Shown in pieces: positions 3,968-29,644 of a DNA stretch of 64,000 nucleotides. Every line of letters begins with the position of its first letter. Positions within the stretch are counted from its first letter, which is position 1. The notes below the pieces were generated by a model. That model made no database searches, was not told the DNA's origin, and saw nothing but the letters and a program-made list of their open reading frames with translations. The DNA is from Thermonema rossianum DSM 10300 (GTDB taxonomy: Bacteria > Bacteroidota > Bacteroidia > Cytophagales > Thermonemataceae). Location of the stretch: the NCBI RefSeq assembly GCF_000426825.1, contig NZ_KE384579.1, forward strand, positions 78,877 through 142,876, given 5' to 3'. Both the position numbers and the translations under genes were made by a program.

Positions 3968-4042
3968 GAAAGCAAAAAGTTGATTTTTAAGCTAAATACA
4001 TGACACGAAGATAAAGTAAAGCGATTGCATACCAAAACAATA

Positions 4043-4082
4043 GAAAAGAAAAGGAGCCACTGAGGCTTCAATGGCTCCTTTT
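4043..4082 (-). terminator. Terminator after ftsZ
   Basis: An 11-base-pair stem (AAAAGGAGCCA / TGGCTCCTTTT) lies just after the ftsZ stop. Read on the minus strand it ends in TTTTCTTTTC. It marks the end of the murC-ftsQ-ftsA-ftsZ run. Confidence 0.85.
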
Positions 4083-4101
4083 GCCTGCATGGGCAGCTGC
4101 A

Positions 4102-5673
4102 TCAGTCGGGTTTATCGTGGAAAAATTTATTGTTTCCCAATATTTGATTGTTTTCGTCCAAGTTATAGCGCGATATATTTTTCTTTGATGCCGGCGGAGT
4201 GTCTTTTAACGGGATATTCAATCGTTGATAGGCCGGTATTTCCAGTTTGTCGGATATGTCTTCCGAGGTGCCATCTATATTGCTTAGGTTTTTTAGTTTA
4301 CGGTAACGTTCGAGCCGTTCCTGCATTTCGCGTGAGTAGCGTGCTTGCTTGGCTTGGCGCTCCTGCTCGCGGCGCAACTCTTCCTCATAGGCACTGTCGT
4401 TTTCGCTCTCCTCTTCCATAGGCAGCTCATCCAGGGTGTGTACTACCTTTTCCGGGGTTTTATCAGGCACAGGCTGCTCGGCAACGGGGCGTGCCATCTC
4501 TTCTTCTTCTTCAATATGAACTTCCGGCTCTATCTTGCTGCTTTGCTCTTTGCTTGCGGGCGTATCGAAGTTGCTAAGGATAAAAGTGCGCGCTTCTTTG
4601 GTTTGCTCCACTATATCTTGCTCAGATACAGTGCCTATGGTTTTGCCGGTTTCGAGGTCAACGATTTTTTTTTGCTCTTCCGGTTCTATGGAGGCGTTTT
4701 CTTCTTCTTTTCCAAAACCGGTTGCCACAATGGTTACCCGCAGGCTGTCGCCCAGGCTGGGGTCAATGCCGGTACCAAAAATATTGTATTCGACTTGGTC
4801 GCCTACTTTTTCTTCTACATAGCGGGTAATTTCATCGAACTCATCCATGCGCAGTTCATTCTTGTCGCCCGACATGACGGAGAGCAAGATGCGTTTGGCG
4901 CCGCGGATGTCTTTGTTATCCAGCAGGGGCGAGGTGAGCGCTTGCTCTACGGCTTTGAGTGCACGGTCATCGCCTTCGGCTTTGGCAGAGCCCATGACTG
5001 CCGTGCCGGCATTGCGCATCACTGTTTTTACGTCCTCAAAGTCTATGTTGATATAGAGGTGCGTGGTAATCAATTCGGCAATACTTTTGGCAGCGGTTGC
5101 CAGTATATTGTCGGCTTGGGCATAGGCCTCCGATATAGGCAGGTTGCCGTATATCTCGCGCAGTTTATCGTTGGAGATAACCAGTACCGTATCGCAGTAC
5201 TTCTTCAACTCGGCGATGCCGGCAGTAGCACGTTCACGCTTGACGCGCCCTTCGAAGGAGAAAGGAAAGGTTACAATAGCGACAGTCAGGATGTCCAAAT
5301 CGCGGGCAATTTGGGCAATAACGGGGGCTGCGCCGGTGCCGGTGCCACCGCCCATGCCTGCCGTGATGAATACCATTTTTGTACCGTCGCTGAGTAGATC
5401 CCTGATTTCTTCTTTGCTCTCAAGGGCGGCTTCGCGTCCGCGTTCGGGATTGGCACCTGCCCCCAAGCCTTCGGTTAGAGCACTTCCTATTTGCAGCTTG
5501 CTGGGAATGGGGCTCGCTTGTAAAGACTGCTTATCGGTATTGCAAATGATGAACTCTACATCTTTGATTCCCCGGTTGTACATGTGATTGACCGCATTGC
5601 AACCACCACCACCGACTCCAATCACTTTGATGATGGATTTCTCCTGTCCGCCTATATTAAACTTGTATGACAT
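4102..5673 (-). CDS. ftsZ: Cell division protein FtsZ
   Basis: FtsZ is the tubulin-like GTPase that forms the division ring. The N-terminal nucleotide-binding loop GGGGCNAVNH is at residues 21-30 and the tubulin signature GGGTGTGAAP at 108-117; the synergy loop aspartates fall in the region before residue 215. At 523 residues it is longer than the typical 380-400 because of a charged, glutamate-rich linker (about residues 330-500) containing EEEEE and ELRREQERQAKQ stretches, a common trait in this phylum. The C-terminal peptide (QILGNNKFFHDKPD) is likely the FtsA docking site. It is last in the division run and 206 bases separate it from ftsA, with its own promoter signals in that gap. Confidence 0.98.
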   Translation of the reverse strand: MSYKFNIGGQEKSIIKVIGVGGGGCNAVNHMYNRGIKDVEFIICNTDKQSLQASPIPSKLQIGSALTEGLGAGANPERGREAALESKEEIRDLLSDGTKMVFITAGMGGGTGTGAAPVIAQIARDLDILTVAIVTFPFSFEGRVKRERATAGIAELKKYCDTVLVISNDKLREIYGNLPISEAYAQADNILATAAKSIAELITTHLYINIDFEDVKTVMRNAGTAVMGSAKAEGDDRALKAVEQALTSPLLDNKDIRGAKRILLSVMSGDKNELRMDEFDEITRYVEEKVGDQVEYNIFGTGIDPSLGDSLRVTIVATGFGKEEENASIEPEEQKKIVDLETGKTIGTVSEQDIVEQTKEARTFILSNFDTPASKEQSSKIEPEVHIEEEEEMARPVAEQPVPDKTPEKVVHTLDELPMEEESENDSAYEEELRREQERQAKQARYSREMQERLERYRKLKNLSNIDGTSEDISDKLEIPAYQRLNIPLKDTPPASKKNISRYNLDENNQILGNNKFFHDKPD

Positions 5674-15732: not shown

Positions 15733-16575
15733 ATGGAAAACATAGAAAAACCGGAAATCGAAATTGCCCAGCTGCGCCGCCTTATAGAAATGATAAAGAA
15801 GCGCTACGATTATGACTTCAGCAACTATGCCATGTCTTCGTTCCGGCGCCGGGTGCAGCGCTTCATCGAGTTGTTTCGAATAGAAAGCATGGAGGAGCTT
15901 ATTCGCAAGTTGGAGCTGGACAAGCAGTTTTTCAAAACCTTCCTGTCCGAAATTACCGTGAACGTCACGGAAATGTTCCGGGACCCTACTTTTTGGGTAG
16001 AATTGCGCGATGAAATCATTCCCAGCATTTTGATGAACAAAAAGGAGTTTCGCGTGTGGCATGCGGGCTGCTCTTCCGGTGAGGAGGTGTTTTCTATGGC
16101 AATTCTGCTTGATGAAATGGGAATTCTTGACCAAGTCGAAATCGTAGCTACCGACATCGATTATAGCATATTGGACAAGGCGCAGCAGGCTACCTATAAC
16201 CTGCGCAACATGGAAGAGGTAAACAAAAAGAATTATCAGCGCTTCATGGGCAAACGCACGCTCGAAGCTTACTATAAGGTAGAGGACGGCAAGGCTGTGA
16301 TGGATAAAACGCTGCTTCGAAACGTGCAGTTCGTAGAGCACAATCTTGTGAACGGAGAAAAAATAGGAGTGTTTGACCTTATTCTCTGCCGCAATGTGAT
16401 GATCTATTTCAACCAAACCTTGCAAAACGAAGTATTAAAGCTGTTTCATGCCAGCTTGCCGCGCTATGGCTACTTGGCAATTGGCTCGAAGGAATCACTC
16501 ATATGGTGCGAATATGCCAATAAATTCATCATTGTGAACAACAATGAAAAGATTTACAAAAAAATAAGAGATTAA
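15733..16575 (+). CDS. CheR-type protein-glutamate methyltransferase
   Basis: A 280-residue SAM-dependent methyltransferase of the CheR family, which methylates glutamates on chemoreceptors. The N-terminal helical domain (residues 10-85) contains YDFSNYAMSSFRRRVQRF; the SAM loop AGCSSGEEVFS is near residue 110, TEMFRDPTFW just before, and LCRNVMIYFN near 219. Nothing resembling a chemoreceptor, CheA or CheW is encoded nearby. It starts a plus-strand series with a CheB-type gene 31 bases on. The target may be the HAMP-containing receptor encoded at 18083 or a protein elsewhere; stand-alone CheR/CheB pairs next to GAF and PAS sensors are frequent in this phylum. Confidence 0.9.
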   Translation: MENIEKPEIEIAQLRRLIEMIKKRYDYDFSNYAMSSFRRRVQRFIELFRIESMEELIRKLELDKQFFKTFLSEITVNVTEMFRDPTFWVELRDEIIPSILMNKKEFRVWHAGCSSGEEVFSMAILLDEMGILDQVEIVATDIDYSILDKAQQATYNLRNMEEVNKKNYQRFMGKRTLEAYYKVEDGKAVMDKTLLRNVQFVEHNLVNGEKIGVFDLILCRNVMIYFNQTLQNEVLKLFHASLPRYGYLAIGSKESLIWCEYANKFIIVNNNEKIYKKIRD

Positions 16576-16606: not shown

Positions 16607-17203
16607 ATGGCGCGTTTCGACCATATAAGTTCTAAATACAAACTGATTGTCATAGGGGGCTCGGCAGGCAGCTTTCAGGTAGTCTCGCGTATTTTGCAGG
16701 CACTGCCCGAAGATTTCCCTTTGCCCATTGCCATGTGTTTGCACCGGCTCAAAGATGTGCGGGAAGGTTTTGCCGAAGCGCTTTCCTTAAAAACCAACAA
16801 GCCGGTAGTGGAGCCGCTCGATAAAGAGCTTATCAAAAAAGGAACGATTTATTTGGCGCCGGCAAACTATCACTTATGTGTGGAACTGGGGCAGACATTC
16901 TCTCTTTCTACCGAAGAGCCGGTGAACAATTCTCGCCCCTCTATTGACCTGCTGTTCGAAACGGCTGCCTATGCTTATCGCGATAAGTTGATTGGTATTT
17001 TGTTGTCGGGAGCAAACCGCGATGGGGCATGGGGAATGAAAAAAATACACGAGCGGGGAGGGCTTACCATCGTGCAGGAGCCATCGGAATGCCTGATAGA
17101 TACCATGCCTGCATCGGCTATGCAGGCCACCCGCATAGATTATGTATTACGAAGTGACCAAATAATTGATTTTTTACGTAAATTACATAAGCAATACGCT
17201 TAA
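16607..17203 (+). CDS. CheB-type methylesterase (catalytic domain only)
   Basis: A 198-residue protein that corresponds to the CheB catalytic domain without the receiver domain that normally controls it. The catalytic triad can be placed: Ser19 in GGSAGS, His46 in CLHRL and Asp about 139 in GANRDGAWG. CheB removes methyl groups placed by CheR. Because there is no receiver domain, activity would have to be regulated otherwise, for instance by expression or partner binding. It lies between the CheR-type gene (31 bases) and the GAF gene (12 bases), so the three are probably one transcript. Confidence 0.9.
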   Translation: MARFDHISSKYKLIVIGGSAGSFQVVSRILQALPEDFPLPIAMCLHRLKDVREGFAEALSLKTNKPVVEPLDKELIKKGTIYLAPANYHLCVELGQTFSLSTEEPVNNSRPSIDLLFETAAYAYRDKLIGILLSGANRDGAWGMKKIHERGGLTIVQEPSECLIDTMPASAMQATRIDYVLRSDQIIDFLRKLHKQYA

Positions 17204-17215
17204 AAAAACACGCTA

Positions 17216-18067
17216 TTGTCCATGAAGAACATATACAGAATAGCAGCTATCCTTTTTGTTTTGGCTTTTTTGGCAGGCGTTGCTTTCCTTGTCAACGACC
17301 TCATTTCCTTGCAAGATAAATTGGCAAAAGTGCTGGATTTGAAAGATTTGGCACAGAGGCAAAAAATGGAGCCGGTGCTTTGGCAGCTGACCCTGCACGT
17401 GGCACTCACCATAGCCGCCGCCCTCTTGGCTATTTTCTTTTTGGTGTTGAACGCCAGCAGAGCCAAAATAGTAATTGCCCAACAGCTTGAAGAAGAAATA
17501 CAGCGCAGCAAGCAAGAAAAAGAAGCGGTGCTTGAAGATGCTGCTACCGCCATGCGGCGCGAAATAGAAGAAAAAGTAGCACGTATCCGGGAAATCGTAA
17601 ATGCCAAAGCCGGCACCGATGAGTTTTTCACGCAAGCGCTGGCAGCCATTGCCGAGGCGGTAGAGGCCAGTCAGGGCATTCTTTACCTGAGTAAATATTA
17701 CGATGGCGTGCAGTATCTCGAAGTAGAAGCAGGCTATGCCTACTATGCATCGGAGGGCTTGCCACAGGCTTTTGAAGTAGGCGAAGGCTTTATTGGACAA
17801 GCAGTTAAGGACAAAAAAACGCTTGTTTTTAACGAGCTGCCCGAAGGGTATATTTCCGTGCCGGTGGTGTCGGGTTTGGGTAAGGGAGCCCCCCGCAGCC
17901 TGTTGATTGCCCCTATGTTGGATGCCGACAAAAGAATTTTGGGCGCCATTGAGCTGGCAAGCTTTAAGAATTTTACGGAAAAAGATAAATTGTTGGTCGA
18001 AGAAGCCATGATGTTGCTGGCACCCCATGTTTTTCTGCCGGCAACCACTTCCGACGACAAAGAATAA
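17216..18067 (+). CDS. Membrane-anchored GAF domain protein
   Basis: A 283-residue protein with two membrane helices (IAAILFVLAFLAGVAFLV near residues 5-25 and LHVALTIAAALLAIFFLVL near 60-80) flanking a short external segment, then a coiled coil (EEEIQRSKQEKEAV) and a GAF domain from about residue 125 to 275. The GAF domain resembles the one in the next protein: both share an E-G-x-G-Q-A core, the PRSLLI(A/M)P strand and a closing E-L-A-S segment. It carries no output domain, so it may act as a sensory partner of the large phosphatase encoded 15 bases downstream. Ligand unknown. Confidence 0.8.
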   Translation: MSMKNIYRIAAILFVLAFLAGVAFLVNDLISLQDKLAKVLDLKDLAQRQKMEPVLWQLTLHVALTIAAALLAIFFLVLNASRAKIVIAQQLEEEIQRSKQEKEAVLEDAATAMRREIEEKVARIREIVNAKAGTDEFFTQALAAIAEAVEASQGILYLSKYYDGVQYLEVEAGYAYYASEGLPQAFEVGEGFIGQAVKDKKTLVFNELPEGYISVPVVSGLGKGAPRSLLIAPMLDADKRILGAIELASFKNFTEKDKLLVEEAMMLLAPHVFLPATTSDDKE

Positions 18068-18082
18068 AGAAAAGCCATACGA

Positions 18083-21000
18083 ATGATGAAAACGCGGAAA
18101 AATATAAGCTTAGGGCTGAAAATCACAGTGGTAGTATTGCTGGTGGCACTGTTGGCCGTTGCCTCAGTGAGCTACTTTGCCTTTCAGGAAAGCAAAACCG
18201 CTTTTAGGAAGAGTGCCATAGAATCGCTGCACGCAGTATCGGCACTGAAGGTAGAGAAAATCAATACCTTTGTCCATGAAATTGAGCGGGGTTTATCCAT
18301 CGGCACACGCCTCAATGCCGCCAAGCGGCGCATCTTGTTTGACGAGTCCGGAGACCAAGAGATAGCCGGGACCAACCCTTTTGCAACAGATGAAAATGAC
18401 CCCTTTGCTTTAGACTATGATGAAAGCGACATCTTGCCCGATGACCCCATCTTTGCAGAAGACAACCAACCTCTGTTTGGCACACAGGAGCAGGAAGACT
18501 CCTTGCCGGCAGTCGATCCGCTGACCTTCTTTCTTACCCCCGAAGCCGAGTTGGATAGTGCCATCGCGATTTTGCGAAAAGTGTATGATTTGCACAACAT
18601 TTATTTGCTCGATGAAAAGCAGAATATCAAATACATAGCCGATAAAAAAACAACGGTACAAGAGGAAAACAAGCCTTTCAAACCGCCTGTAGTTGAGCCC
18701 GGTTTCCTTGAGGCAAGCCGTGATTCGCTACATTTCAGCAAAGTCTTTTTGCAAGACAACGCCCCTTATTTGCTGGCAGCTGCTCCCGTTAAGGACAATG
18801 AAGACCGCATTGGTTATCTTGTTTTTGAAATAGACTTTGAGCGCATCGACCGTCTCATCAATGACCGTACCGGCTTGGGCAATACGGGCGAAGTACTGCT
18901 GGTGCAGCTGCAAGGTTCCAATACGGTGTATGTGCTCAATAAGCGCCCCCTGCTGGAAAAAGATGACCCGGTAAAAAGCATGAACCTCACACAGATGGGC
19001 ACCCTCGACGCCTTGGACGTGCCGCTGGCCGTGCGCAAAGCACTGTCGGGCGAGCAAGCCGAGTTGGAGGAGACAGACGACCGGGGCAAAGAGGTGCTGG
19101 CCGTGACCGACTATGTCCCTCAACTGCAGTGGGGCGTGATTGCCAAAATTGATACATCTGAGGTATATGCGCCTGCTTTTGGGCTGCTGAAACGTTTCTT
19201 GTTGTCAGCAGGTATTACCCTGCTGGTTGCTTTGCTTATTGGACTTATTTTCTCGCAGTTTTTTGTGCAGCCCTTGGGTATTTTGCGTGATGCCGTTGCT
19301 TCTTTGGCAAAAGGGCGCCTGCCTGCCTCCATCGAGGTGGACTCAAAAGACGAGGTCGGCGAAATGGCCTCTTACCTCAACCGCCTGGTGGCAAACCTGC
19401 GTAGCATGGCAAATTTCGCCTCACGCATTGGTAAAAAAGATTTTGACGTGGAGTTTAAACCCGCCGGCGAAGACGATGTGTTGGCCACCGCCCTGCTTGC
19501 CATGCGGGACAGCATTGTGGCTTCGGCAAAAGAAGAAGACGAAAAGCGTTGGATTGTAGAGGGCGTCAAAGAAGTGGGTGATATCCTGCGTGCACGTAAC
19601 GACCTGAAGGAAATGGGCGAAGAATTGCTGGCTTACGTGGTGCAAAGAATAGGTGCTGTGCAAGGGGCATTTTATGTGATGAATGAAAGTGAAAATGAAG
19701 AGGGCGTGAGCTATCTGGAAATGTATGCCAGCTATGCTTACAATAAAAAGAAATATTTGGAAGCCCGCTTCAAGGTAACACGAAAATACGCCGAAGGACT
19801 GGTGGGGCAAGCCGCCATCGAGCGCGATATGATACGGCGTACCGAAATCCCCGAAGATTACTTGACCGTTACTTCCGGCTTATTGGGCGAGCAGCGCCCC
19901 CGCAGTTTGCTCATCATGCCGTTGATTACCAACGAGACCGAGGTGATGGGTTGCTTGGAGCTGGCATCTTTGCACCCCTTCGAAGAAGACGGGCGCGAAG
20001 TGAAATTTGTGCAGGAAATCAGTGGTATCATCGCCCGTACCATCTTCAACATTAAGACAGCCGAAAAAGAAGCCAAGCTCTTAGCCGAAACCACCCAGCT
20101 GAACGTAGAACTGCAGGCGCGTCAAAAAGAGCTGGAAAAAATTGCCAAGGACTTGCAGGAAAAAAGCCGTGAGCTGCAAAAAACAGTTGAACAGCTGGAG
20201 CTTGAAAAGCAAGCCGTGCAGAACGAGCAGCGCAAAACGCAAATCCTGCTTGAAAACGCCTCGGAGGTAATTATCATTTATGACGAAACCATCCATATAC
20301 GCTACATCAGCCCCTCGGTAGAACGAATCCTTGGTTACGGCGTAGATGAAATGGTAGGCATCAACGATGAAGTGCATGTGGAAGAGGAGTGGAAAGAAGC
20401 CTACCGCCGCATGTTCGAAGAACTGAAGCAATACCCCGACGAGCGGGTAACCATTCAAATGGAATACCGCAAAAAAAGCGGCGAAGCCATCTGGGTGGAA
20501 GTGACCGGCACCAACCTCTTGCAAGACCCCGTCATCAAAGGGATTGTTGTGAATATGCGCGATATTACGGAGCGCAAGCGCGCCGAGCGCGAAGAACGGA
20601 TGCGCTCGCAGATGCAGGCGCTCTCCGAAAACTCGCCTGATTTGATTATGCGTCTCAACCTCGAAGGGGTTATCTACTATATCAACCCGACCATTGAAAA
20701 CTATACGGCGAAGGCTAAGGAAGAATACCTGCAAAAGGTATTGAGCAATGAGTTATTGCCCGAAGAGGTGGTGCGTCAGATGTATCGTGTGTTGGAAGGT
20801 GTCAGTGCCCGCCGTGAAAAAGTGACGCTCGAAATCAACTTCCCTTCGGTTTTGGGCGACCGCGTCATGCAGCTGAATGCTATTCCGGAGTTTGGTGAAG
20901 ACAACGAGCTGGAGTCTATTTTGGTTGTACTGCACGATATCACCGTAATGAAGGAATACCAGCTCGAAATAGAAACTGCCAATAAGAAAGTAACCGACAG

Positions 21001-21748
21001 TATCAACTACGCAAAGCGTATTCAAGATGCCATCATGCCGGATACGCAGCTGCTGCGTTCTTACTTTGCCGACTCTTTCGTTATCTTCAAACCCCGGGAT
21101 GTGGTTAGTGGCGACTTCCCCTGGATTGTGCGCAAAGGCGACTATATTTATGTGGCAGCCGCCGACTGTACCGGACACGGCGTGCCCGGTGCTTTGGTGT
21201 CGCTTATCGGTTACTTCCTCATGAACAACATCATAGACACCCATAGCGACATTTTACCCAACGACTTCCTGGACCTGCTCGACAAAGAGATGACCCATAC
21301 CTTACGCCAAGACCGTGAAGACAGTGTAACCCGCGACGGTATGGATGTGTCATTGGCACGCATCGACTTGAAGAACAATAAGATACTGTATGCCGGTGCA
21401 CACCGGCCGCTCTATTATCTCTATCCTTCCGATGAGGATGTGCAAGAGATTAAAGGCGATAAAATGCCCATTGGCGGTGGGCAGTTCCGCGACAGGGACA
21501 AGTTCTCCGTGCATGAGCTGGATTTGACGCAGGGCTTGAGTATTTACCTCTTCTCTGATGGCATGCCGGACCAGTTTGGAGGTCCTCAAAACCGGAAGTT
21601 CTCTTCTAAAAGAATACGTAACATTCTTTTAGAGCATAGACAAGAAAACATGGACCAAATAGCCATGGCATTGGATACTGCCTTCGTGGAGTGGATGGGC
21701 GACAACAAGCAAACAGACGACGTGCTGTTTATCGGTATTCGCTTTTGA
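18083..21748 (+). CDS. SiaA-like membrane receptor with PP2C (SpoIIE) phosphatase domain
   Basis: A 1221-residue multi-domain receptor. In order: membrane helix (about residues 11-33), a large extracytoplasmic sensor region (to about 368, Cache-like, with a very acidic insert around 85-140), second helix (about 370-393), HAMP (about 394-445), GAF (about 490-660), a coiled coil (about 665-720), two PAS domains (about 722-833 and 846-960), and a C-terminal PP2C/SpoIIE-type serine/threonine phosphatase (about 990-1221) with VVSGDFPW, AADCTGHGVPGALVS, SDGMPDQFG and TDDVLF metal-binding motifs. In Pseudomonas, SiaA (receptor-HAMP-PP2C) dephosphorylates SiaC. Here the SiaB- and SiaC-like genes follow directly, which supports the same role. 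The extra GAF and PAS domains are not in the Pseudomonas protein. Possible CheR/CheB target sites were not identified. Confidence 0.88.
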   Translation: MMKTRKNISLGLKITVVVLLVALLAVASVSYFAFQESKTAFRKSAIESLHAVSALKVEKINTFVHEIERGLSIGTRLNAAKRRILFDESGDQEIAGTNPFATDENDPFALDYDESDILPDDPIFAEDNQPLFGTQEQEDSLPAVDPLTFFLTPEAELDSAIAILRKVYDLHNIYLLDEKQNIKYIADKKTTVQEENKPFKPPVVEPGFLEASRDSLHFSKVFLQDNAPYLLAAAPVKDNEDRIGYLVFEIDFERIDRLINDRTGLGNTGEVLLVQLQGSNTVYVLNKRPLLEKDDPVKSMNLTQMGTLDALDVPLAVRKALSGEQAELEETDDRGKEVLAVTDYVPQLQWGVIAKIDTSEVYAPAFGLLKRFLLSAGITLLVALLIGLIFSQFFVQPLGILRDAVASLAKGRLPASIEVDSKDEVGEMASYLNRLVANLRSMANFASRIGKKDFDVEFKPAGEDDVLATALLAMRDSIVASAKEEDEKRWIVEGVKEVGDILRARNDLKEMGEELLAYVVQRIGAVQGAFYVMNESENEEGVSYLEMYASYAYNKKKYLEARFKVTRKYAEGLVGQAAIERDMIRRTEIPEDYLTVTSGLLGEQRPRSLLIMPLITNETEVMGCLELASLHPFEEDGREVKFVQEISGIIARTIFNIKTAEKEAKLLAETTQLNVELQARQKELEKIAKDLQEKSRELQKTVEQLELEKQAVQNEQRKTQILLENASEVIIIYDETIHIRYISPSVERILGYGVDEMVGINDEVHVEEEWKEAYRRMFEELKQYPDERVTIQMEYRKKSGEAIWVEVTGTNLLQDPVIKGIVVNMRDITERKRAEREERMRSQMQALSENSPDLIMRLNLEGVIYYINPTIENYTAKAKEEYLQKVLSNELLPEEVVRQMYRVLEGVSARREKVTLEINFPSVLGDRVMQLNAIPEFGEDNELESILVVLHDITVMKEYQLEIETANKKVTDSINYAKRIQDAIMPDTQLLRSYFADSFVIFKPRDVVSGDFPWIVRKGDYIYVAAADCTGHGVPGALVSLIGYFLMNNIIDTHSDILPNDFLDLLDKEMTHTLRQDREDSVTRDGMDVSLARIDLKNNKILYAGAHRPLYYLYPSDEDVQEIKGDKMPIGGGQFRDRDKFSVHELDLTQGLSIYLFSDGMPDQFGGPQNRKFSSKRIRNILLEHRQENMDQIAMALDTAFVEWMGDNKQTDDVLFIGIRF

Positions 21749-21793: not shown

Positions 21794-21863
21794 ATGTATA
21801 AATTAGTGGAAATTTAATTTTATTTTGTTAATCTTTACAATTAACCAAAATGAGTATTTGACT

Positions 21864-22415
21864 ATGAAATATGTTTTTGATTTACACAAAACGATGCTGG
21901 CACACAACCTCATATTAGTATATGAGGGGGAGTTTACACAAGAAATCACCAAGTCTATTTTGGCCATGGCTGAGCGCAACATGGATGCCATTGGTGAGAG
22001 CTCCGGTGTAAAAAGAAAGGTGTTTAATGTAATGGTCGAGTGCTTGCAAAATATCGTGAAGCACGCCGAAGACCTCAACGAAAAAGGCGAAGACGGTTTG
22101 CGCAACAACGCTATTTTCTTGTTAGGCAAAAGCGTATCGCAGTACTTGATTACTTCGGGTAACCCCGTTCGCAACGAAGTGATAGAGTCCATATCCTCTA
22201 AGATAGACCAAGTCAACGCCCTGGATAAAGACGGTTTGAAGCAGTTGTATAAAGAGGTAATCAAAAAAGGCGAAATTTCTGAAAAAGGAGGAGCCGGGTT
22301 AGGATTTATCGACATGGCGCGTAAGTCAGGACAAAAACTCGAGTATTCGTTTGAGCCTATCAATGATGAGTTTTCTTTCTTCTCTTTGCAAATTACCGTT
22401 CCCCGGGAAGACTAA
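21864..22415 (+). CDS. SiaB-like protein kinase
   Basis: A 183-residue protein of the SiaB family, which has a GHKL-type ATPase fold like anti-sigma factor kinases. The N box appears as VMVECLQNIVKHAED and the G box as GGAGLGFIDMARKSG; ATP-lid material lies between. In Pseudomonas SiaB phosphorylates SiaC on Thr68, opposing the phosphatase SiaA. I start at ATG 21864 (MKYVFDLHKT), with 115 bases after the phosphatase gene; the in-frame codon at 21825 is in A/T-rich leader. Next gene is 51 bases on and encodes the matching SiaC-like substrate. Confidence 0.87.
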   Translation: MKYVFDLHKTMLAHNLILVYEGEFTQEITKSILAMAERNMDAIGESSGVKRKVFNVMVECLQNIVKHAEDLNEKGEDGLRNNAIFLLGKSVSQYLITSGNPVRNEVIESISSKIDQVNALDKDGLKQLYKEVIKKGEISEKGGAGLGFIDMARKSGQKLEYSFEPINDEFSFFSLQITVPRED

Positions 22416-22466: not shown

Positions 22467-22835
22467 ATGAACATCATCAGCTTAGAAGGAAAAGAGGATA
22501 CCCCAAAAGTGATCTTGGATAAAGACAATGGCGTGTTTGAGATCTCGGGCCGTTCTCTCCCCGAAGATGCGCGCGAGTTCTATCGCCCCATTATCGAATG
22601 GCTGCAAGAGTATGCCTCGAACCCCAACCCCGAAACTGTATTTAACTTCAAACTTGAGTACTTTAATACAGCTTCTTCCAAGCTCTTGTTAGATGTGCTG
22701 CAGACTTTGGAAGGCATTCCCAATGCCAAGGTGATATGGTATCACTTCGAAGACGATGAAGACATGGAAGAAGCAGGAAAAGAGTTTGAAGACATGGTGG
22801 ATGTAGAATTTGAATTTAGAATATTGGCAGACTAA
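22467..22835 (+). CDS. SiaC-like regulatory phosphoprotein (DUF1987)
   Basis: A 122-residue protein of the SiaC/DUF1987 family. Family landmarks are visible: an N-terminal strand pair with TPKVILD, the FEISGRSLPEDAREFY segment, and FNTASSKLLLD where the threonine is residue 68, the same number as the phosphorylated threonine in Pseudomonas SiaC. There, unphosphorylated SiaC binds and activates the diguanylate cyclase SiaD. No GGDEF protein is encoded in this window; the downstream gene is an ABC transporter with extra domains, which is the obvious candidate effector or partner, though only by position. The C-terminal third is strongly acidic. Confidence 0.88.
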   Translation: MNIISLEGKEDTPKVILDKDNGVFEISGRSLPEDAREFYRPIIEWLQEYASNPNPETVFNFKLEYFNTASSKLLLDVLQTLEGIPNAKVIWYHFEDDEDMEEAGKEFEDMVDVEFEFRILAD

Positions 22836-22902: not shown

Positions 22903-25900
22903 ATGAGTGAAAACGTATTAGAGGCTTTAGCAAAGTTGTTTGCCATTACAACAATGCAAGATGGAGGTGCCTCCCCAAAGGAGCGTGCTTATGTGGAGGA
23001 CTATTTTCAACGCGTACTTGATAAAGCCTCGGTACCCAAGTATCTCCAAATCTATGAGCAGGTAGAGCGCGAGTTTCAGGAGAATATAGAACGTGCCCGG
23101 CAGAAAGAGATCGAAAAACTCAAAAAGAAAAAAGAAGGGGCACAAGTAGATGCTGCTGAAGTAGCCAAAGAGATAGAAGAAAGGGCTTTCATGCGTTTCT
23201 CGGTGCGTGCGTTAAAGATGTGCCGGGAAATCAACAACAACCTCGACCTTCAACAGAAGGTCTTTGCTTTAATTCGTATGCTTGAGCTGGTGGCCTGTGA
23301 TAATAATCTCAGTGCCAGGCGAATGGAGGTGATTCGCACCGCTGCAGAATCACTCCAGCTGGAAGAATATTTTGGGCTGATCAAAGACTTCGTATTGGGA
23401 GAGCTGGAAGACCTCCTGATACACGAAGAAGTGCTCATTATAGCCTCCGATTTTTATCCTACCCATGAGCAATTGGCAAAGCACCTTTCGCCCGAAAAGG
23501 GCCTGAAAGGTGCTTTGGTCTTCTTACGCATCCCCGATGTAGATGTGTTCTTCTTGCGTTACCTCCCCGACAAAACAGGTGACTATGAAGTGGTTCGCCT
23601 TGATGCGGTGGAAATAGTGCCCAATGTCGTGGAAGTTTTTGCACGGGGAAGCATCATCCGTACACAGCTCGAAGTAGTCTATTATAGCGAGGTAGTAAGT
23701 GGCTTTATAGGCAAAAGCATCAAGCCCATTTCCTTTGAAGCCACAGATATTGAGTTCCGTTTCAAGAACGGCAACATCGGCGTGCGCAACATCAACCTGA
23801 AGGAGGGCGCCGGCCGCTTGATTGCCATCATGGGAGCCAGTGGAGCCGGGAAAACCACTTTGCTGAATGTGCTCTCCGGCTTGGAAAAGCCTTCCAAGGG
23901 GCAAGTGCTCCTCAATGGTGTGAACATTCACGACGAGCAAGACAAGCAGCGCATCGAGGGGGTGATTGGCTATGTGGCACAGGATGACCTGCTGATTGAA
24001 GAGCTGACCGTTTATCAAAACTTATACTACAGTACCAAACTTTGTTTTAAGGACCTGACCGAAAAGCAGCTGCACGAACGGGTGGTGGATACGCTTGCCA
24101 ACTTGGGGCTGGAGCATATCAAAGACTTGAAAGTGGGGTCGGTCTTGGAAAAGACTATCAGTGGGGGGCAGCGCAAACGCTTGAATATTGCTTTGGAGCT
24201 CATTCGCGAACCTTCCGTGCTCTTTTTGGATGAACCCACTTCCGGGCTTTCGTCCCGTGATTCCGAGAACGTCATGGACTTGCTCAAAGAGCTTTCCTTG
24301 AAAGGAAAACTCATTTTTATAGTGATTCACCAGCCCTCATCCGAAATATTTAAGATGTTTGATAAGCTCCTGATTCTTGATACAGGAGGTTATCCTATTT
24401 ACTATGGCAACCCCATTGAAGCCATCAGTTATTTCCGTCGCAAGGCGCAGTATCCGCGCGCCGATGAACCGGCTTGCGAGCGTTGCGCCAATACCAAGCC
24501 CGAGGAAATCTTTGATATTATAGAAGAGCGGATAGTAACCGAAAAAGGGGTATATACCAACAAACGCAAACGCACCCCCGAGCAATGGCACGAAGAGTAC
24601 CTCAAAGAGTTTGGAGGCAAAACCGAGCTGGTAGAGCGAGTAACCGAACTGCCTCCCAAAGCTTTGGATTTGCCCAGTAAAATCAAACAGACGGCCATTC
24701 TGGCTACGCGCGATTTCTTGTCGAAAGTAACAAACCGCCAATATGTAGCCATCAACCTCTTGGAAGCGCCCTTGTTGGCTTTGTTGCTTTCCTTTGTGAT
24801 TCGTTATCAGAATACACCGGAAGGGGAGTATGTCTATCGTTTCAATGACAACATACCTGCCTATATCCTCATTTGTGTGCTGGTAGCCCTTTTCATGGGC
24901 TTGACCGTCAGTGCCGAAGAGATTATCAAGGACCGTAAGATACGGAAGCGCGAAGCCTTTTTGAATATAAGCAAGCATAGTTATCTGCTTTCCAAAGTGT
25001 TGATACTGTTTACCTTGTCGGCAGTTCAAACACTTTCTTTTGTGCTTATAGGCAATGCCATCCTGGAAGTGCAAGGAATGACCTGGACCTACTGGTTGGT
25101 GCTCTTTTCCGTTTCTTGCTTTGCCAACATGCTGGGGTTGAATATATCCAACACCTTCAACTCGGTAGTAACCGTTTATATTACCATTCCGCTTTTGCTT
25201 ATTCCCCAAATGATATTGAGTGGTATTATTTTCAATTTTAACAAGCTGAACACAGTAGTCAGTGAAAAAGGACGTGTGCCTCTTTTGGCAGATTTGATGG
25301 TATCGCGCTGGGGCTTTGAAGCCATTGCCGTGCGGCAGTTTAAAGATAACCCTTACGAGGCGCCTGTGTATGGCTTCGATAAAGAGGAAAGTATTGCCGA
25401 CTACCGGCGCTCTTTTTGGTTGGAAGAGATGCGTGAGGTGCTGGGCGCGGCCGAAGATTTGCTGAAGCTGCCCAAAAGCGAAGCACGCGCTCCGTTGGAG
25501 GAAAAACTGACTCTTTTGGCTAAGGAATTGGAGCGGGAACAGCGTGCCGATGCGCGTTATCGCTATGCGCGGGAACACCGCCCCGAAACGCCCTATTACG
25601 AAAATCTTTTGCATGAGCTGACGCCCGAAAGGTTTTCTCGCAAAACGGTAGAGTATCTGGAAGAGTACTTCAACACCCTCGAAGAGTATTACAAAAAACG
25701 TTTCAACACAGCACGGCGTCAAAAAGAATTCTTTTTGTTTAATGTCGAAAGCCAAGGGGTAAACCTTGACTCACTGCGAGGACTGTTTTACAATGATGCT
25801 TTGGCCGATTTGGCTAAAAATGCCAATATGAAAGACAAGATAGAACTATATAAAGGCAAGTTTTTACAACACATGGATCCTATCTTCCAGGACCCTACTG

Positions 25901-26109
25901 ATTATAAGCATGCCCTTGACTACCGTGCTCACTTTATGGCGCCTCGTAAACACTTCTTGGGACGCTACTTCGATACCTACTATTTCGATATAGCCGCTAT
26001 ATGGATATTGACGATTTTATTGTATTTTACACTTTATACAGACTTCTTTAACAAACTATCGTTGTCGAAGGGGTGGGAAATGGCTAAGTCTTTCAAAATA
26101 AATAAATAA
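22903..26109 (+). CDS. ABCG-type ABC transporter with TerB-like N-terminal domain
   Basis: A 1068-residue single-chain half transporter. Residues 1-180 are helical and begin with DGGASPKERAYVEDYF, a pattern like the metal-binding TerB fold; 180-280 is an unassigned beta-rich stretch. The ABC ATPase follows: Walker A GASGAGKTT (about 309-317), signature SGGQRKR (about 420), Walker B LFLDEPTSGL (about 440) and H loop VIHQPSS. A linker with ACERCANTKPEE leads to an ABC2-type membrane domain with five helices between about 615 and 775. About 245 charged, largely helical residues then precede one last helix (about 1033-1050). The domain order (ATPase then membrane) is that of the ABCG/White group. 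Substrate unknown; it lies 67 bases after the SiaC-like gene and directly before the lipoprotein pairs. Confidence 0.88.
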   Translation: MSENVLEALAKLFAITTMQDGGASPKERAYVEDYFQRVLDKASVPKYLQIYEQVEREFQENIERARQKEIEKLKKKKEGAQVDAAEVAKEIEERAFMRFSVRALKMCREINNNLDLQQKVFALIRMLELVACDNNLSARRMEVIRTAAESLQLEEYFGLIKDFVLGELEDLLIHEEVLIIASDFYPTHEQLAKHLSPEKGLKGALVFLRIPDVDVFFLRYLPDKTGDYEVVRLDAVEIVPNVVEVFARGSIIRTQLEVVYYSEVVSGFIGKSIKPISFEATDIEFRFKNGNIGVRNINLKEGAGRLIAIMGASGAGKTTLLNVLSGLEKPSKGQVLLNGVNIHDEQDKQRIEGVIGYVAQDDLLIEELTVYQNLYYSTKLCFKDLTEKQLHERVVDTLANLGLEHIKDLKVGSVLEKTISGGQRKRLNIALELIREPSVLFLDEPTSGLSSRDSENVMDLLKELSLKGKLIFIVIHQPSSEIFKMFDKLLILDTGGYPIYYGNPIEAISYFRRKAQYPRADEPACERCANTKPEEIFDIIEERIVTEKGVYTNKRKRTPEQWHEEYLKEFGGKTELVERVTELPPKALDLPSKIKQTAILATRDFLSKVTNRQYVAINLLEAPLLALLLSFVIRYQNTPEGEYVYRFNDNIPAYILICVLVALFMGLTVSAEEIIKDRKIRKREAFLNISKHSYLLSKVLILFTLSAVQTLSFVLIGNAILEVQGMTWTYWLVLFSVSCFANMLGLNISNTFNSVVTVYITIPLLLIPQMILSGIIFNFNKLNTVVSEKGRVPLLADLMVSRWGFEAIAVRQFKDNPYEAPVYGFDKEESIADYRRSFWLEEMREVLGAAEDLLKLPKSEARAPLEEKLTLLAKELEREQRADARYRYAREHRPETPYYENLLHELTPERFSRKTVEYLEEYFNTLEEYYKKRFNTARRQKEFFLFNVESQGVNLDSLRGLFYNDALADLAKNANMKDKIELYKGKFLQHMDPIFQDPTDYKHALDYRAHFMAPRKHFLGRYFDTYYFDIAAIWILTILLYFTLYTDFFNKLSLSKGWEMAKSFKINK

Positions 26110-26135: not shown

Positions 26136-27041
26136 ATGAAAAACACATCGTGGCTTTACCTCATCCTTTGTATTTTACTCTTCGGTGCTTGTGGTGAAAG
26201 CATCGAAGAAGATAAGGCATCCTCTGTCACAGCAATGCAGGATAGTTCAAAAAAAACAACTACCCGCTTATCACCGGAAGTTATCAAGGGCATCATTCAG
26301 TCAATTCCCAACCCTGTAGAGGTTGCTTTCTTGATTGAACAAGTGGCAGAATATGACCCTACACTGCTAAACTCGCCGGAAAACGTAAGCAAATACAATA
26401 CGGACTACCGTCGCGCCTTGAACTTGGGCATTTACAGTACTGACTTGGGCTATGCCAACACCTATGGAAAAAGCCAAGACGTTATCAACTACCTTACGGC
26501 TATTCGCGACCTGGCAGCCGGATTGAACGTAGAGAAATATTTTGATTTTGAACATATTCGCAAACTGGCTGCTTATAAAGACAGCTTGGGCGTGTTGGTA
26601 ATGGAATCGACCCGCAGCCTGGAGCGCATGAACGAAGCCCTTCAAAATGAGGGGCGTGCCGATATGACAGTGCTTATCTTAACCGGCGGTTGGTTGGAAG
26701 GGCTGTACCTGCTCTGCAATGTAGAGCGCGAACAACACAACGAAGAGCTGATGATTCGCATTGCCGAGCAAAAAATAGTGTTGGAACAGTTGTTGGTGCT
26801 GTTACGTAACTATGAAGACTTTAACCCCAAAATCAAACGTCTGCGCAGTCAGTTGGAAGAACTGGCTGAGCTTTATGAGCACGTAGAGGTGAAGTATGTG
26901 CCCGGTGAAGTGAAGCAAGTGGAAATAGACGGTGTTCTGACCATAGAGCAAGAGCAAAAAGCCGAAGTGCAATTTACACTGAATGATTTAAATGCTATAT
27001 TGAACAAAGTTCGTGATATAAGAGATCAAATCGTTAACTAA
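26136..27041 (+). CDS. Predicted lipoprotein, copy 1 of a duplicated module
   Basis: A 301-residue lipoprotein: signal peptide with lipobox LFGAC near residue 19, then a flexible segment and an all-helical domain. The core includes RALNLGIYSTDLGYA, NYLTAIRDLAAGL, LILTGGWLEGLYL and an EQ-rich helix toward the end. I do not recognise a named function. The protein at 27553 is clearly homologous over the whole domain. I chose the ATG at 26136, which puts a lysine before the hydrophobic core; ATG 26124 is also in frame. It is 26 bases after the ABC transporter gene and probably in the same transcript, suggesting an envelope partner of the transporter. Confidence 0.8.
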   Translation: MKNTSWLYLILCILLFGACGESIEEDKASSVTAMQDSSKKTTTRLSPEVIKGIIQSIPNPVEVAFLIEQVAEYDPTLLNSPENVSKYNTDYRRALNLGIYSTDLGYANTYGKSQDVINYLTAIRDLAAGLNVEKYFDFEHIRKLAAYKDSLGVLVMESTRSLERMNEALQNEGRADMTVLILTGGWLEGLYLLCNVEREQHNEELMIRIAEQKIVLEQLLVLLRNYEDFNPKIKRLRSQLEELAELYEHVEVKYVPGEVKQVEIDGVLTIEQEQKAEVQFTLNDLNAILNKVRDIRDQIVN

Positions 27042-27059
27042 ACCAAAATTAGAACTGCC

Positions 27060-27500
27060 ATGAAACGCTATGTTTTGTTATTCTTTTTGTTGATTGGAGG
27101 CGCTGCTTACGCACAGCAGTGCACACCGGAGGTAATGCGGGAGTACACGCGCAAGTGTGTGAACCAGTTGCGTCCGCGCGGATATACCTTCCTCAAGAGC
27201 TATCGCATCGATGCCAGCTCTAACAAGACGGTAGAGTACTCGTATATTTTCAACCGTGGACAAACCTATATGATCACCTTTGCCAATGAGTCAAACCCCA
27301 AAGAATTTTCGGGCATTTTATTTGAGTTGTTTGACAGCTCGCGCCGCAAGCTGATTGACAACTACAATCCTTCTTTAAAGCAGTACCGCACAGCCGTTGC
27401 CTTCCGGTGCAGTCAAACCGGCATTTACCACCTGAAGTTTACCTTTGAGCCTTCTGTGAAGGATTATTGCCTGGTAAGCGTAGTAGGCTTTAAGCGTTAA
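27060..27500 (+). CDS. Small secreted protein, copy 1 of a duplicated module
   Basis: A 146-residue protein with a clear signal peptide ending at AYAQQ, expected to be periplasmic or surface-exposed. The mature part is a small beta-rich domain: FLKSYRID, VEYSYIFNRGQTYMI, a central LFDSSRRK segment, CSQTGIYHLKFT and a conserved end VVGFKR. Three cysteines after the signal could form disulfides. Function unknown. A homologue is encoded at 28557 with the same motifs in the same order. It follows the lipoprotein by 18 bases, forming the first lipoprotein/secreted-protein pair. Confidence 0.8.
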   Translation: MKRYVLLFFLLIGGAAYAQQCTPEVMREYTRKCVNQLRPRGYTFLKSYRIDASSNKTVEYSYIFNRGQTYMITFANESNPKEFSGILFELFDSSRRKLIDNYNPSLKQYRTAVAFRCSQTGIYHLKFTFEPSVKDYCLVSVVGFKR

Positions 27501-27552
27501 TCCGGAGTTGCTTGACAACAATACTTTTCGAACAACTAAACAACTGCCAACC

Positions 27553-28482
27553 ATGTTAAAAAAATATTTATCAATTGCACTGCTGCTGTCTATGGGTTTA
27601 TTGGCCTCTTGTGGAGGCGGAGAAGCCGAACAACAAGAGGGTGAAGGTAACAGCCAAACTAATGGAACCACTGAAAATACAGTGAATGTAGAGGAAGCCC
27701 TTCAGAAGCTAAGCAATGATTTTACCTTATTACGTGCCATTCCCAGCCCCATCCAAATGACCTCTTTGGTGCAGGAGTCGGGGGCAAAGTATGACCCTGC
27801 CATCTTGCACGATGCCAACAAAGCCAAAAATTACGGCTCTGATTTTAAACGGGCACTGAATGTAGGCGTTTACAGTACTGACTTGGGGTTTGCTCATCTT
27901 TATGGTAAAAACCAAGACGCAATCGACTATTTGGTGGCCATCCGCGACTTGTCAACAGGCTTGAAAGTAGATTCTTACTTCGATTTTGAGCGCCTCAAGC
28001 AGTTGACCGAATCCAATGCCAGCATTGATGAACTCTTGGCAGAGACGCTTACCAGCCTGCAGACCATGAAGGATGGCTTGGAAAAAGAAAACCGGGGCGA
28101 CATCACGGTATTGGTTGTAACCGGCGGCTGGGTGGAAGCGCTCTATCTGGGATGCCACGTGGCTGAAAATGCCAAAAACAAACAACAGCTGCTCGAGCAT
28201 ATTGCTGACCAAAAAGTATCGCTTGACAACATTGTAAAGCTGTTGGAAGATATTCAAGCGATTAACCCCGAGGCAAAAGCACTGTATGAAAAAGCAAAGC
28301 AGCTGCAAGATGCCTATGCCAATGTTTCCTTGAAAGTGGAAACAATATCGAAAGACACGGTCATTGACGGCGTGCCCACGGTAGTGCAAGAAGATCAGTC
28401 CGTAGAGTTAAACTTCACTGAACAAGATTTTCAAAAGATATACTCTATTGTAAAAGAAATGCGCCGGTTGATCGTTGAATAA
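27553..28482 (+). CDS. Predicted lipoprotein, copy 2 of a duplicated module
   Basis: A 309-residue lipoprotein, homologous to the product at 26136. The lipobox is LLASC, followed by a low-complexity G/E/Q/N segment that acts as a tether, then the same helical domain: RALNVGVYSTDLGFA, YLVAIRDLSTGLK, LVVTGGWVEALYL. The two copies differ throughout, so the duplication is old and they may have separate roles. I start at ATG 27553 (MLKKYLS), the normal signal-peptide start, rather than the in-frame codon at 27508. A hairpin terminator follows the stop. Confidence 0.8.
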   Translation: MLKKYLSIALLLSMGLLASCGGGEAEQQEGEGNSQTNGTTENTVNVEEALQKLSNDFTLLRAIPSPIQMTSLVQESGAKYDPAILHDANKAKNYGSDFKRALNVGVYSTDLGFAHLYGKNQDAIDYLVAIRDLSTGLKVDSYFDFERLKQLTESNASIDELLAETLTSLQTMKDGLEKENRGDITVLVVTGGWVEALYLGCHVAENAKNKQQLLEHIADQKVSLDNIVKLLEDIQAINPEAKALYEKAKQLQDAYANVSLKVETISKDTVIDGVPTVVQEDQSVELNFTEQDFQKIYSIVKEMRRLIVE

Positions 28483-28494
28483 AAGGATACCGGC

Positions 28495-28537
28495 AGGGCT
28501 TCTTTGGGTTTGTTTTGCTCCTCAAGGAAGCCCTTTT
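28495..28537 (+). terminator. Terminator after the second lipoprotein gene
   Basis: Stem AGGGCTTCTTTG / CAAGGAAGCCC (one mismatch near the loop) followed by TTTT. It lies between the second lipoprotein gene and its partner at 28557, so that partner may get less transcript or have its own promoter. Confidence 0.6.
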
Positions 28538-28556
28538 ACCTAAAAAATGATGAATA

Positions 28557-28994
28557 ATGAAACGGTGGTGCTTGTTTTTATCCTTTGCTTTCTTTTATCT
28601 GTTGGGGAGCGTCTCATCGGCTCGTGCTCAATGCGATACCGAGCCTTTTGTTCAAGAAGCACTTAACTTCTTGAAGGAAAAAAACTTCAATTTCCTTAAA
28701 AGTTACAAGATAGATGGCCAAAGGGGCACCAATAAGGAAATAGAATATTCTTATGTGTTCAGCACCGGCACCACTTATATGATTTTTGTAAACAACGGCA
28801 AAAAGAATGCAGAGGGGGTGATTGTGACGGTAGAAGATGCCGAGCGTAACGAAATAGCCAAAAGTTTTGTAGGCGATACCTACGTGCCCGCCGTGCAAAT
28901 TATTTGCAACCGCACCGGCATCTATTATTTGCGCTTCACTTTGGTTGACAAAAGACATGATTGTGCGGCCGCAGTTCTTGGTTTCAAACGCTAA
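28557..28994 (+). CDS. Small secreted protein, copy 2 of a duplicated module
   Basis: A 145-residue protein with a signal peptide (FAFFYLLGSVSSARAQ) and a mature domain homologous to the product at 27060: FLKSYKID, IEYSYVFSTGTTYMI, CNRTGIYYLRFT and the end VLGFKR are shared, including the cysteine before the TGIY motif and the one before the last strand. Function unknown. It completes the second lipoprotein/secreted-protein pair. The esterase gene follows 5 bases after the stop. Confidence 0.8.
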   Translation: MKRWCLFLSFAFFYLLGSVSSARAQCDTEPFVQEALNFLKEKNFNFLKSYKIDGQRGTNKEIEYSYVFSTGTTYMIFVNNGKKNAEGVIVTVEDAERNEIAKSFVGDTYVPAVQIICNRTGIYYLRFTLVDKRHDCAAAVLGFKR

Positions 28995-28999
28995 GCGTC

Positions 29000-29644
29000 A
29001 TGCAGTATGAAATGCATACCCTTGGCGTGACACGCACCGCGCGTTTTTATACTTTAGGGCATGCCGGCGCCCATATCCGCCGCATATGGTGGTGTTTTCA
29101 TGGCTATGGACAACTGGCTGCCGACTTCCTGACGCCCTTCTCTTGTCTCGATGACGGACAAACTCTGTTGATTGCCCCCGAAGGGCTTTCACGTTTTTAC
29201 CTGAAATCAGGCGTGGGACAGGTAGGCGCTTCTTGGATGACCAAGGAAATGCGTGAAGCCGAGATTGCAGACTATTTAAATTACTTCCGGAAAATAGAGC
29301 AAGAGGTGTATGCCTCTTGGGAACATCCATTCGAAATGCATTTGCTGGGGTTCTCGCAGGGCTGTGCCACAGTATGCCGCTGGCTGTTACACAGCCGCTT
29401 TACACCTTCGAAACTTATCTTGTGGGGAGGTGTTTTCCCGCATGACTGGGATTTTGAAAAAGCGGCGGAGCGTCTGCGGGGTGTGCCTGTTTATTTTGTT
29501 CTTGGAAAAGAGGACCGCTTCATTACCCCTGAACAGTTACTATCTTTTATAGATATGCATAAAAAATACGGCTTCGATATGAAGCCGCTGTTTTATGAAG
29601 GTGGACACGAAGTAAAAGAAAGTGTGCTTGCCACCTTGGTTTAG
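29000..29644 (+). CDS. Alpha/beta hydrolase, carboxylesterase/phospholipase-like
   Basis: A 214-residue serine hydrolase with the alpha/beta fold. The nucleophile elbow is GFSQGCA (Ser about residue 118), the oxyanion-hole strand WWCFHGYGQ is near the N-terminus, the acid is probably in LGKEDRFI, and the catalytic histidine is in EGGHEVKES. The GFSQG elbow is typical of the carboxylesterase/lysophospholipase group. Substrate unknown. The ATG at 29000 gives the family's usual start. Its stop overlaps the stop of the convergent reductase gene by 4 bases. Confidence 0.85.
   Translation: MQYEMHTLGVTRTARFYTLGHAGAHIRRIWWCFHGYGQLAADFLTPFSCLDDGQTLLIAPEGLSRFYLKSGVGQVGASWMTKEMREAEIADYLNYFRKIEQEVYASWEHPFEMHLLGFSQGCATVCRWLLHSRFTPSKLILWGGVFPHDWDFEKAAERLRGVPVYFVLGKEDRFITPEQLLSFIDMHKKYGFDMKPLFYEGGHEVKESVLATLV

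Follow-up and report, generated by a model that had tools for sequence, protein, structure and literature searches.

Partner switches are known to act on sigma factors. In Pseudomonas aeruginosa, SiaA and SiaB determine whether SiaC is phosphorylated at Thr68, and SiaC that is unphosphorylated at this residue binds and activates the diguanylate cyclase SiaD, as described in passages of two papers (PMC7647112, PMC8457831); a passage of the latter also carries the suggestion, made by the authors of the SiaC-SiaD work, that DUF1987 proteins modulate adjacent proteins (PMC8457831). The DNA analyzed here, 64,000 nucleotides of Thermonema rossianum DSM 10300 (assembly GCF_000426825.1, contig NZ_KE384579.1, positions 78,877 to 142,876 of the forward strand; this whole stretch is called the window), carries a Sia-type switch followed by an ABCG-like half exporter and by two tandem pairs of a lipoprotein (LP1, LP2) and a small secreted protein (SP1, SP2). 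The setting of these pairs is itself the finding: a locus of Sia switch, exporter, lipoprotein and secreted protein recurs in many Cytophagales, and no description of it was found in the literature searched (open-licence papers). With moderate likelihood, LP and SP are envelope partners of a Sia-controlled ABCG-like exporter, a pair that the family of this organism carries twice after an old tandem duplication. A first-pass annotation of the letters alone had seen the exporter as a neighbor, but overlooked the genes of the Sia partner switch and of CheR/CheB, which are usual in the locus.

As in SiaABCD of P. aeruginosa, a PP2C/SpoIIE phosphatase, a SiaB family kinase and SiaC are encoded together, and the SiaC phosphosite has the form NTxS with its threonine at the same number, Thr68 (compared with passages of PMC7647112 and PMC8457831). 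Unlike SiaABCD, the window locus contains no diguanylate cyclase and continues with the exporter; SiaA is preceded by CheR, CheB and a GAF-domain protein; and SiaB and SiaC miss the equivalog cut-offs (NF038264, 87.9 of 225 bits; NF038265, 73.4 of 150 bits). Among 88 SiaC sequences the phosphosite motif is NTAS or NTSS in 81 and NSSS in two; of the other five, two have the threonine in a different context, two have isoleucine or valine, and one is out of register. GGDEF matches were found in 0/11 genomes searched, that of the window included (97.5% complete), by a search that, as its control, found them in 8/14 known genomes; because the genome has no GGDEF match, an output of the Pseudomonas type seems to be absent.

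The exporter resembles the ABCG-type or pigment-precursor-type half transporters (TIGR00955) in that an ATPase and then an ABC-2 membrane domain, both matched over their cut-offs, are joined in a single chain; it differs from them in its N-terminal TerB-like domain, its extra C-terminal region and its frequent LP-SP neighbors, and its TIGR00955 score of 262 is far below the cut-off of 736. The TerB domain exceeded its cut-off in eight of ten exporter N-termini that were chosen by hand and scanned.

Recurrence and Gene Order of the Locus

In a collection of 84,980 species, 583 of the 584 pattern matches listed encode LP relatives, so that at least 583 exist; the 80 of these that scored best against LP1, termed the named loci, lean to the main-locus type, and their titles are mostly those of Cytophagales or its families, with some Marinilabiliaceae and Bacteroidales and a few Chitinophagaceae. 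The exporter is the next labeled gene upstream of LP in 76 of the 78 named loci with upstream DNA, the exceptions being L149, where none is adjacent, and L174, where SiaC lies directly before LP; SP is the next labeled gene after the last LP in 74/80. Within the 1.5 kb that precede the exporter, SiaC is the nearest labeled gene in 61 of 64 cases. Median gaps are 78 bp between SiaC and exporter (n = 61), 67 bp between exporter and LP (n = 74), and 16 bp between LP and SP (n = 74). Gene presence was counted in the 57 named loci where the DNA upstream of the exporter exceeds 5.5 kb: CheR, CheB, the GAF protein, SiaA, SiaB and SiaC are all found on the same strand in 42, while five lack CheR only, one lacks CheR and CheB, three have SiaB and SiaC, three have SiaC alone, and three have none of these genes; some of the CheR misses may come from the 10 kb flank. 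Co-transcription of the linked form is likely, as a putative feature; no operon limits were set from the counts of promoter-like sites (20 vs. 18.7 in shuffled sequence) and terminator-like sites (25 vs. 17.6, standard deviation 4.0).

A second sample consisted of relatives chosen by kinship, with stretches picked around their LP and SP matches. The exporter is adjacent in 26 of the 31 stretches that have both LP and SP, and one further stretch has LP and exporter with no SP. Six genomes have at least some LP or SP genes with no exporter beside them, and all of these (6/6) have a copy of this exporter type elsewhere. Two of the relatives (G008, G015) have the exporter adjoining a SiaC match and LP and SP on other contigs; the SiaC-exporter link thus survives detachment of LP and SP. 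LP was found in 40/59 relatives and SP in 35/59, never without LP; the five with LP and no SP have weaker LP matches only (best E 8.3e-33). In a sample of the phylum, LP occurred in 4/148 genomes, so that the LP family is rare outside the order.

The features of the window are collected in Table 1. The SiaA-like phosphatase matched SpoIIE (PF07228, 5e-21, 76 bits) and HAMP over their cut-offs, and dCache_1 under its cut-off (39.6 of 45 bits). The FSH1-like hydrolase begins 5 bp past SP2; the same label is found downstream in many named loci, where the hydrolase is a frequent neighbor and probably optional.

Table 1. Predicted genes of the locus and its downstream neighbor, by position in the window.
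Feature	Position	Strand	Evidence and remarks
CheR methyltransferase	15733..16575	+	PF01739 2.3e-45; in 42/57 named loci
CheB methylesterase domain, no receiver domain	16607..17203	+	PF01339 2.9e-50; in 47/57 named loci
GAF-domain protein, frequent locus partner	17216..18067	+	in 48/57 named loci
SiaA-like sensor phosphatase	18083..21748	+	Cache-type, HAMP, GAF, PAS, PAS, SpoIIE
SiaB family kinase (DUF6272)	21861..22415	+	PF19788 1.7e-44; NF038262 182 bits, cut-off 85
SiaC, partner-switch target protein	22467..22835	+	Thr68 in NTAS; PF09345 1.9e-38 (131 bits, cut-off 24.5)
ABCG-like half exporter	22903..26109	+	N-terminal TerB-like, ATPase, ABC-2 membrane domain; PF00005 3e-33, PF01061 1.9e-17
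LP1, lipoprotein	26136..27041	+	ATG start; ATG 12 bases upstream possible
SP1, small secreted protein	27060..27500	+	Sec-type leader (by eye)
LP2, LP1 paralogue	27553..28482	+	38% identity; ATG start; mechanical open reading frame begins at TTG 27508
SP2, SP1 paralogue	28557..28994	+	predicted PPC/GOLD/PliG-like jelly-roll domain
FSH1-like serine hydrolase	29000..29644	+	ATG 29000 within open reading frame 28961-29644; PF03959 4.6e-7 (frame read from 28994)

Several observations were made beside the common gene order. In L167 and L174, both with Cyclobacteriaceae titles and no SiaA or SiaB match, a cytidine-deaminase-like gene lies just before SiaC; in L143 and L153 another SiaA-like gene lies downstream of the main locus, at about 12-15 kb, together with a divergent SiaC-SiaB pair. 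SiaC is multiplied in two genomes, with 42 matches in G052 and 6 in that of the window (G000). Elsewhere in the window, on the - strand at 58703-63996, RND (ACR_tran) efflux genes occupy open reading frames of 1036 and 728 amino acids with a slight overlap; the latter ends close to the edge of the window.

A Second LP-Exporter Pair

The genome of the window also encodes a distant LP paralogue beside a second exporter of the TerB-ABC type (TerB 2.1e-9), in the gene order WG-repeat protein, LP, exporter, RuvA, SprA (L100, contig C14). Six of the 19 LP-paralogue loci read, this one included, have such an adjacent exporter, and there LP precedes the exporter, the reverse of the main locus; that the two genes are paired again, in another order, argues for a joint function of LP and exporter. 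The same arrangement of LP paralogue and exporter directly upstream of ruvA and sprA was observed in the sister species (L182).

Homology and Duplication of the LP-SP Pairs

The order lipoprotein, secreted protein, lipoprotein, secreted protein, as read in the first-pass annotation, was confirmed as four co-directional open reading frames (ORFs) on the + strand, and the motifs it had named were found: both LPs carry YSTDLG and TGGW-E, and both SPs carry FLKSY-ID, TGIY and GFKR. Homology within both pairs, which it had also proposed, is borne out by pairwise alignments far above shuffled controls: LP1 and LP2 align by BLASTP with 209 bits (E 1e-70; 113/300 identical, 38%; 9 gaps), and SP1 and SP2 with 87 bits (E 2e-27; 57/153 identical, 37%; 15 gaps); the local score of the LPs minus the leader region is 525 (best of 500 shuffles, 68), and that of the SPs is 199 (best of 500 shuffles, 51). 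Comparison of LP with SP gave no homology (E 8.6 or no match). Its statement that none of these families has a recognizable function agrees with the family searches, in which no curated family covers LP or SP: LP1, SP1, LP2 and SP2 had zero Pfam or NCBIfam matches over cut-off, and a scan of 31 LP and 34 SP homologues gave scattered weak matches only. The whole DNA stretch matches at one place in the genome.

By eye and simple pattern, both LPs have a lipobox-like cysteine (FGAC19 in LP1, LASC20 in LP2) and both SPs a hydrophobic stretch at the N-terminus. The lipobox column is at least 90% cysteine across 84 LP rows, and the lipobox pattern matched in 103 of 132 LP ORFs; it is missing from some copies, for example the second and third LPs of family f15. 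Two or more acidic residues, as a signal for surface export after the lipobox, were present in 43/103, from which no conclusion was drawn.

The claim that the duplication is old and retained is upheld by gene order, the LP tree and substitution rates. LP-SP-LP-SP is the order in 8/8 sampled genomes of the window's family; of the named loci, 77/80 have one LP, two have two (L102, L149) and one has three. In a focused LP tree the eight LP2 form one clade (100/99), as do all 16 LPs of the family (97/98), and a single LP1 clade was not rejected by the approximately unbiased (AU) test (p 0.43); the LP tree thus places the LP duplication inside this family. Between two species of the genus, the ratio of nonsynonymous to synonymous substitution rates (dN/dS) is 0.02-0.06 for all four genes and 0.054 for the exporter, which suggests retention of the four genes; dS of the four is 1.4-1.8, near saturation, so that these ratios are rough. 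The focused trees used 29 of 51 LP rows and 25 of 45 SP rows from 17 chosen loci; the first alignments contained 31/51 LP ORFs and 34/45 SP ORFs, and those of the named loci omit two of 84 LP ORFs (L105, L135) and three of 76 SP ORFs (L112, L122, L165).

For SP, the AU tests neither showed nor rejected SP1 and SP2 clades. The SP alignment, with 147 columns only, is too short to settle co-duplication of SP with LP. In the best tree SP2 does not form a single clade (p 0.235 in the AU test for such a clade), an SP1 clade is borderline (p 0.062), and SP1 of the window and of the sister species falls outside the other 14 family SPs (supported as a group with 92/94 in the focused tree and 97/94 in an earlier tree). 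These results, together with arrays among relatives that imply single-gene expansions (LP-LP-LP-SP or LP-LP in f15, LP-LP-SP in f3, LP-SP-SP in f9), would fit separate duplications of LP and SP, or an exchange of sequence between copies. We regard this alternative as rather unlikely, given the identical order in all eight family genomes, the LP clades described above, and a single clade of all 16 family SPs that was not rejected (p 0.395) on so short an alignment. A block duplication of LP-SP is the simplest reading of these data, although the SP tree does not prove it.

Predicted Structures

The AlphaFold2 model of LP1 is an all-helical bundle in which a beta hairpin precedes the final helix (predicted local distance difference test score, pLDDT, 87.2; predicted template modeling score, pTM, 0.83). 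Foldseek found no match to it in the PDB at E 0.001 (best E 1.0), and the best VIA-align hit (Z 9.1) lies within the range of unrelated helical bundles. Imelysin-like lipoproteins (3pf0) share the helical bundle with LP1 (Z 7.3, root-mean-square deviation (rmsd) 3.0, 101 residues); this score, at rank 17 among generic bundles and with no Foldseek match at E 0.001, lies within helical-bundle noise and does not support LP as an imelysin. A PDB sequence search with the LP and SP family profiles gave two and four weak partial matches, respectively.

The SP2 model is a confident jelly-roll (pLDDT 90.7, pTM 0.79) that matches GOLD, PPC/collagen-binding, PliG and subtilase C-terminal domains (best Foldseek E 9e-6, best Z 10.1); with the jelly-rolls 5sv5, 1nqj, 5azw and 4dzg it aligns over 87-91 residues at Z 8.8 to 9.8 and 11-18% identity. 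SP differs from the PPC, GOLD and PliG domains in that it stands alone as a secreted protein, has conserved cysteines and lacks its own Pfam match; PPC, GOLD and PliG were absent among the 25 of 29 Pfam families displayed for 34 SPs (E up to 1). Assignment of SP to C1q or to the C-terminal domain of the type IX secretion system was rejected, with two and three of the 34 members matching at best E 0.15 and 0.0011. The predicted jelly-roll suggests binding of a partner or ligand, and no particular function.

CheR and CheB

Methyl-accepting chemotaxis protein (MCP) matches are absent in 37/59 relatives. Of the 22 genomes that carry CheB in the locus, nine gave no MCP match at E 0.001, and seven of these nine have no CheB other than that of the locus. 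That CheR and CheB serve MCPs only is unlikely for this part of the set, and in genomes without an MCP match their substrate is probably not a standard chemoreceptor; SiaA and the GAF protein are candidate methylation substrates, by their proximity only. The genome of the window has two MCP matches and a second CheB near them, so that its own CheR and CheB could serve both. One MCP match in this genome (C2:272100-272603) has an in-frame TAA inside; the copy in the sister species does not.

Proposed Working of the Locus and Alternatives

In the proposed working, SiaA would sense an outside signal via its Cache-type domain and dephosphorylate Thr68 of SiaC, which SiaB would rephosphorylate; unphosphorylated SiaC would bind the cytosolic part of the exporter, at the TerB-like domain or nearby helices, and turn it on. 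The exporter would then move a lipid-like, glycan or small-molecule substrate into the envelope, where the lipid-anchored LP and the small jelly-roll SP would receive or place it; the two pairs of the window may have separate specificities, and reversible methylation by CheR and CheB probably tunes the sensor. The exporter is the putative target of SiaC by virtue of its place beside it. The first-pass annotation had proposed envelope or cargo roles for genes in this position; the frequent adjacency to the exporter (76/78 and 26/31) favors the envelope role, and that of exporter cargo is disfavored, as both LP and SP carry Sec-type leaders (by eye). A more specific form of this model, in which a serine/threonine partner switch of the Sia type directly gates an ABC exporter in bacteria without detectable diguanylate cyclases, CheR and CheB provide chemotaxis-type adaptation without any chemoreceptor, and LP-SP are envelope receptors or acceptors that differ in number between lineages (a single pair, two pairs, or arrays of LP), is possible and should be taken as tentative.

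A number of observations weigh against Sia control of an exporter served by LP and SP. With regard to the switch, isoleucine or valine replaces the threonine in two of the 88 SiaC sequences; TerB stays under its cut-off in the window exporter (22.2 of 24.4 bits); and the action of SiaC on the exporter is putative. The genome of the window has six SiaC matches, so that SiaC has other partners and the SiaC of the locus could serve elsewhere, and exporter, LP and SP occur without any Sia gene in the flank in 3/57 named loci, and without SiaA in six more. These last points fit an alternative in which LP and SP do serve the exporter, but all that the Sia and CheR/CheB genes have in common with them is the locus, the target of SiaC being elsewhere and the exporter ungated. 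This alternative is unlikely, though deserving of some weight: it is SiaC, not SiaA or SiaB, that is nearest to the exporter in 61/64 cases, SiaC alone is kept with the exporter in three loci, and SiaC lies beside the exporter in G008 and G015, even though LP and SP are elsewhere there.

With regard to the partnership of LP and SP with the exporter, SP is without a match after LP in 6/80 named loci, and the LP fold, as modeled, yields no function. Locus L174 has SiaC, LP and SP, with the exporter not found; this exporter-less arrangement (2913-4737) could reflect a genuine loss of the gene or an error of assembly. Five of the 31 LP-SP stretches of relatives (L064, L073, L077, L082, L084) have no adjacent exporter, LP stands alone in L069, L072 and L088 and SP in L070, L078, L094 and L099 (together 7/39), and 13/19 LP-paralogue loci lack an adjacent exporter of the TerB-ABC type. 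LP-SP could accordingly be pictured as a general envelope or cell-surface module that has the ABC protein as its neighbor by history and not by function; this is improbable in view of the adjacency in 76/78 named loci and 26/31 stretches of relatives, and of the second LP-exporter pair with reversed order in 6/19 paralogue loci. The idea that SP is a PliG-like periplasmic lysozyme inhibitor, and the locus a defense against muramidases, can draw on 4dzg as one of the best fold matches (Foldseek E 1.8e-5; Z 9.8, rmsd 2.4, 90 aligned residues), but is very improbable, since GOLD, PPC, collagen-binding and subtilase C-terminal domains lie within about 1 Z of it, indicating a common jelly-roll only, and an inhibitor would not be expected to pair regularly with LP and an exporter.

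Significance

The tandem duplication of LP and SP is real and old, and ordinary in itself; it is the locus around it that offers a testable case of the proposal, made in a passage of PMC8457831, that DUF1987 proteins modulate adjacent proteins. If the model of a Sia-controlled exporter with LP and SP as its envelope partners is correct, the direct output of partner switches would extend to a membrane transporter, two nameless protein families would gain a function, and CheR and CheB would have a substrate outside chemotaxis.

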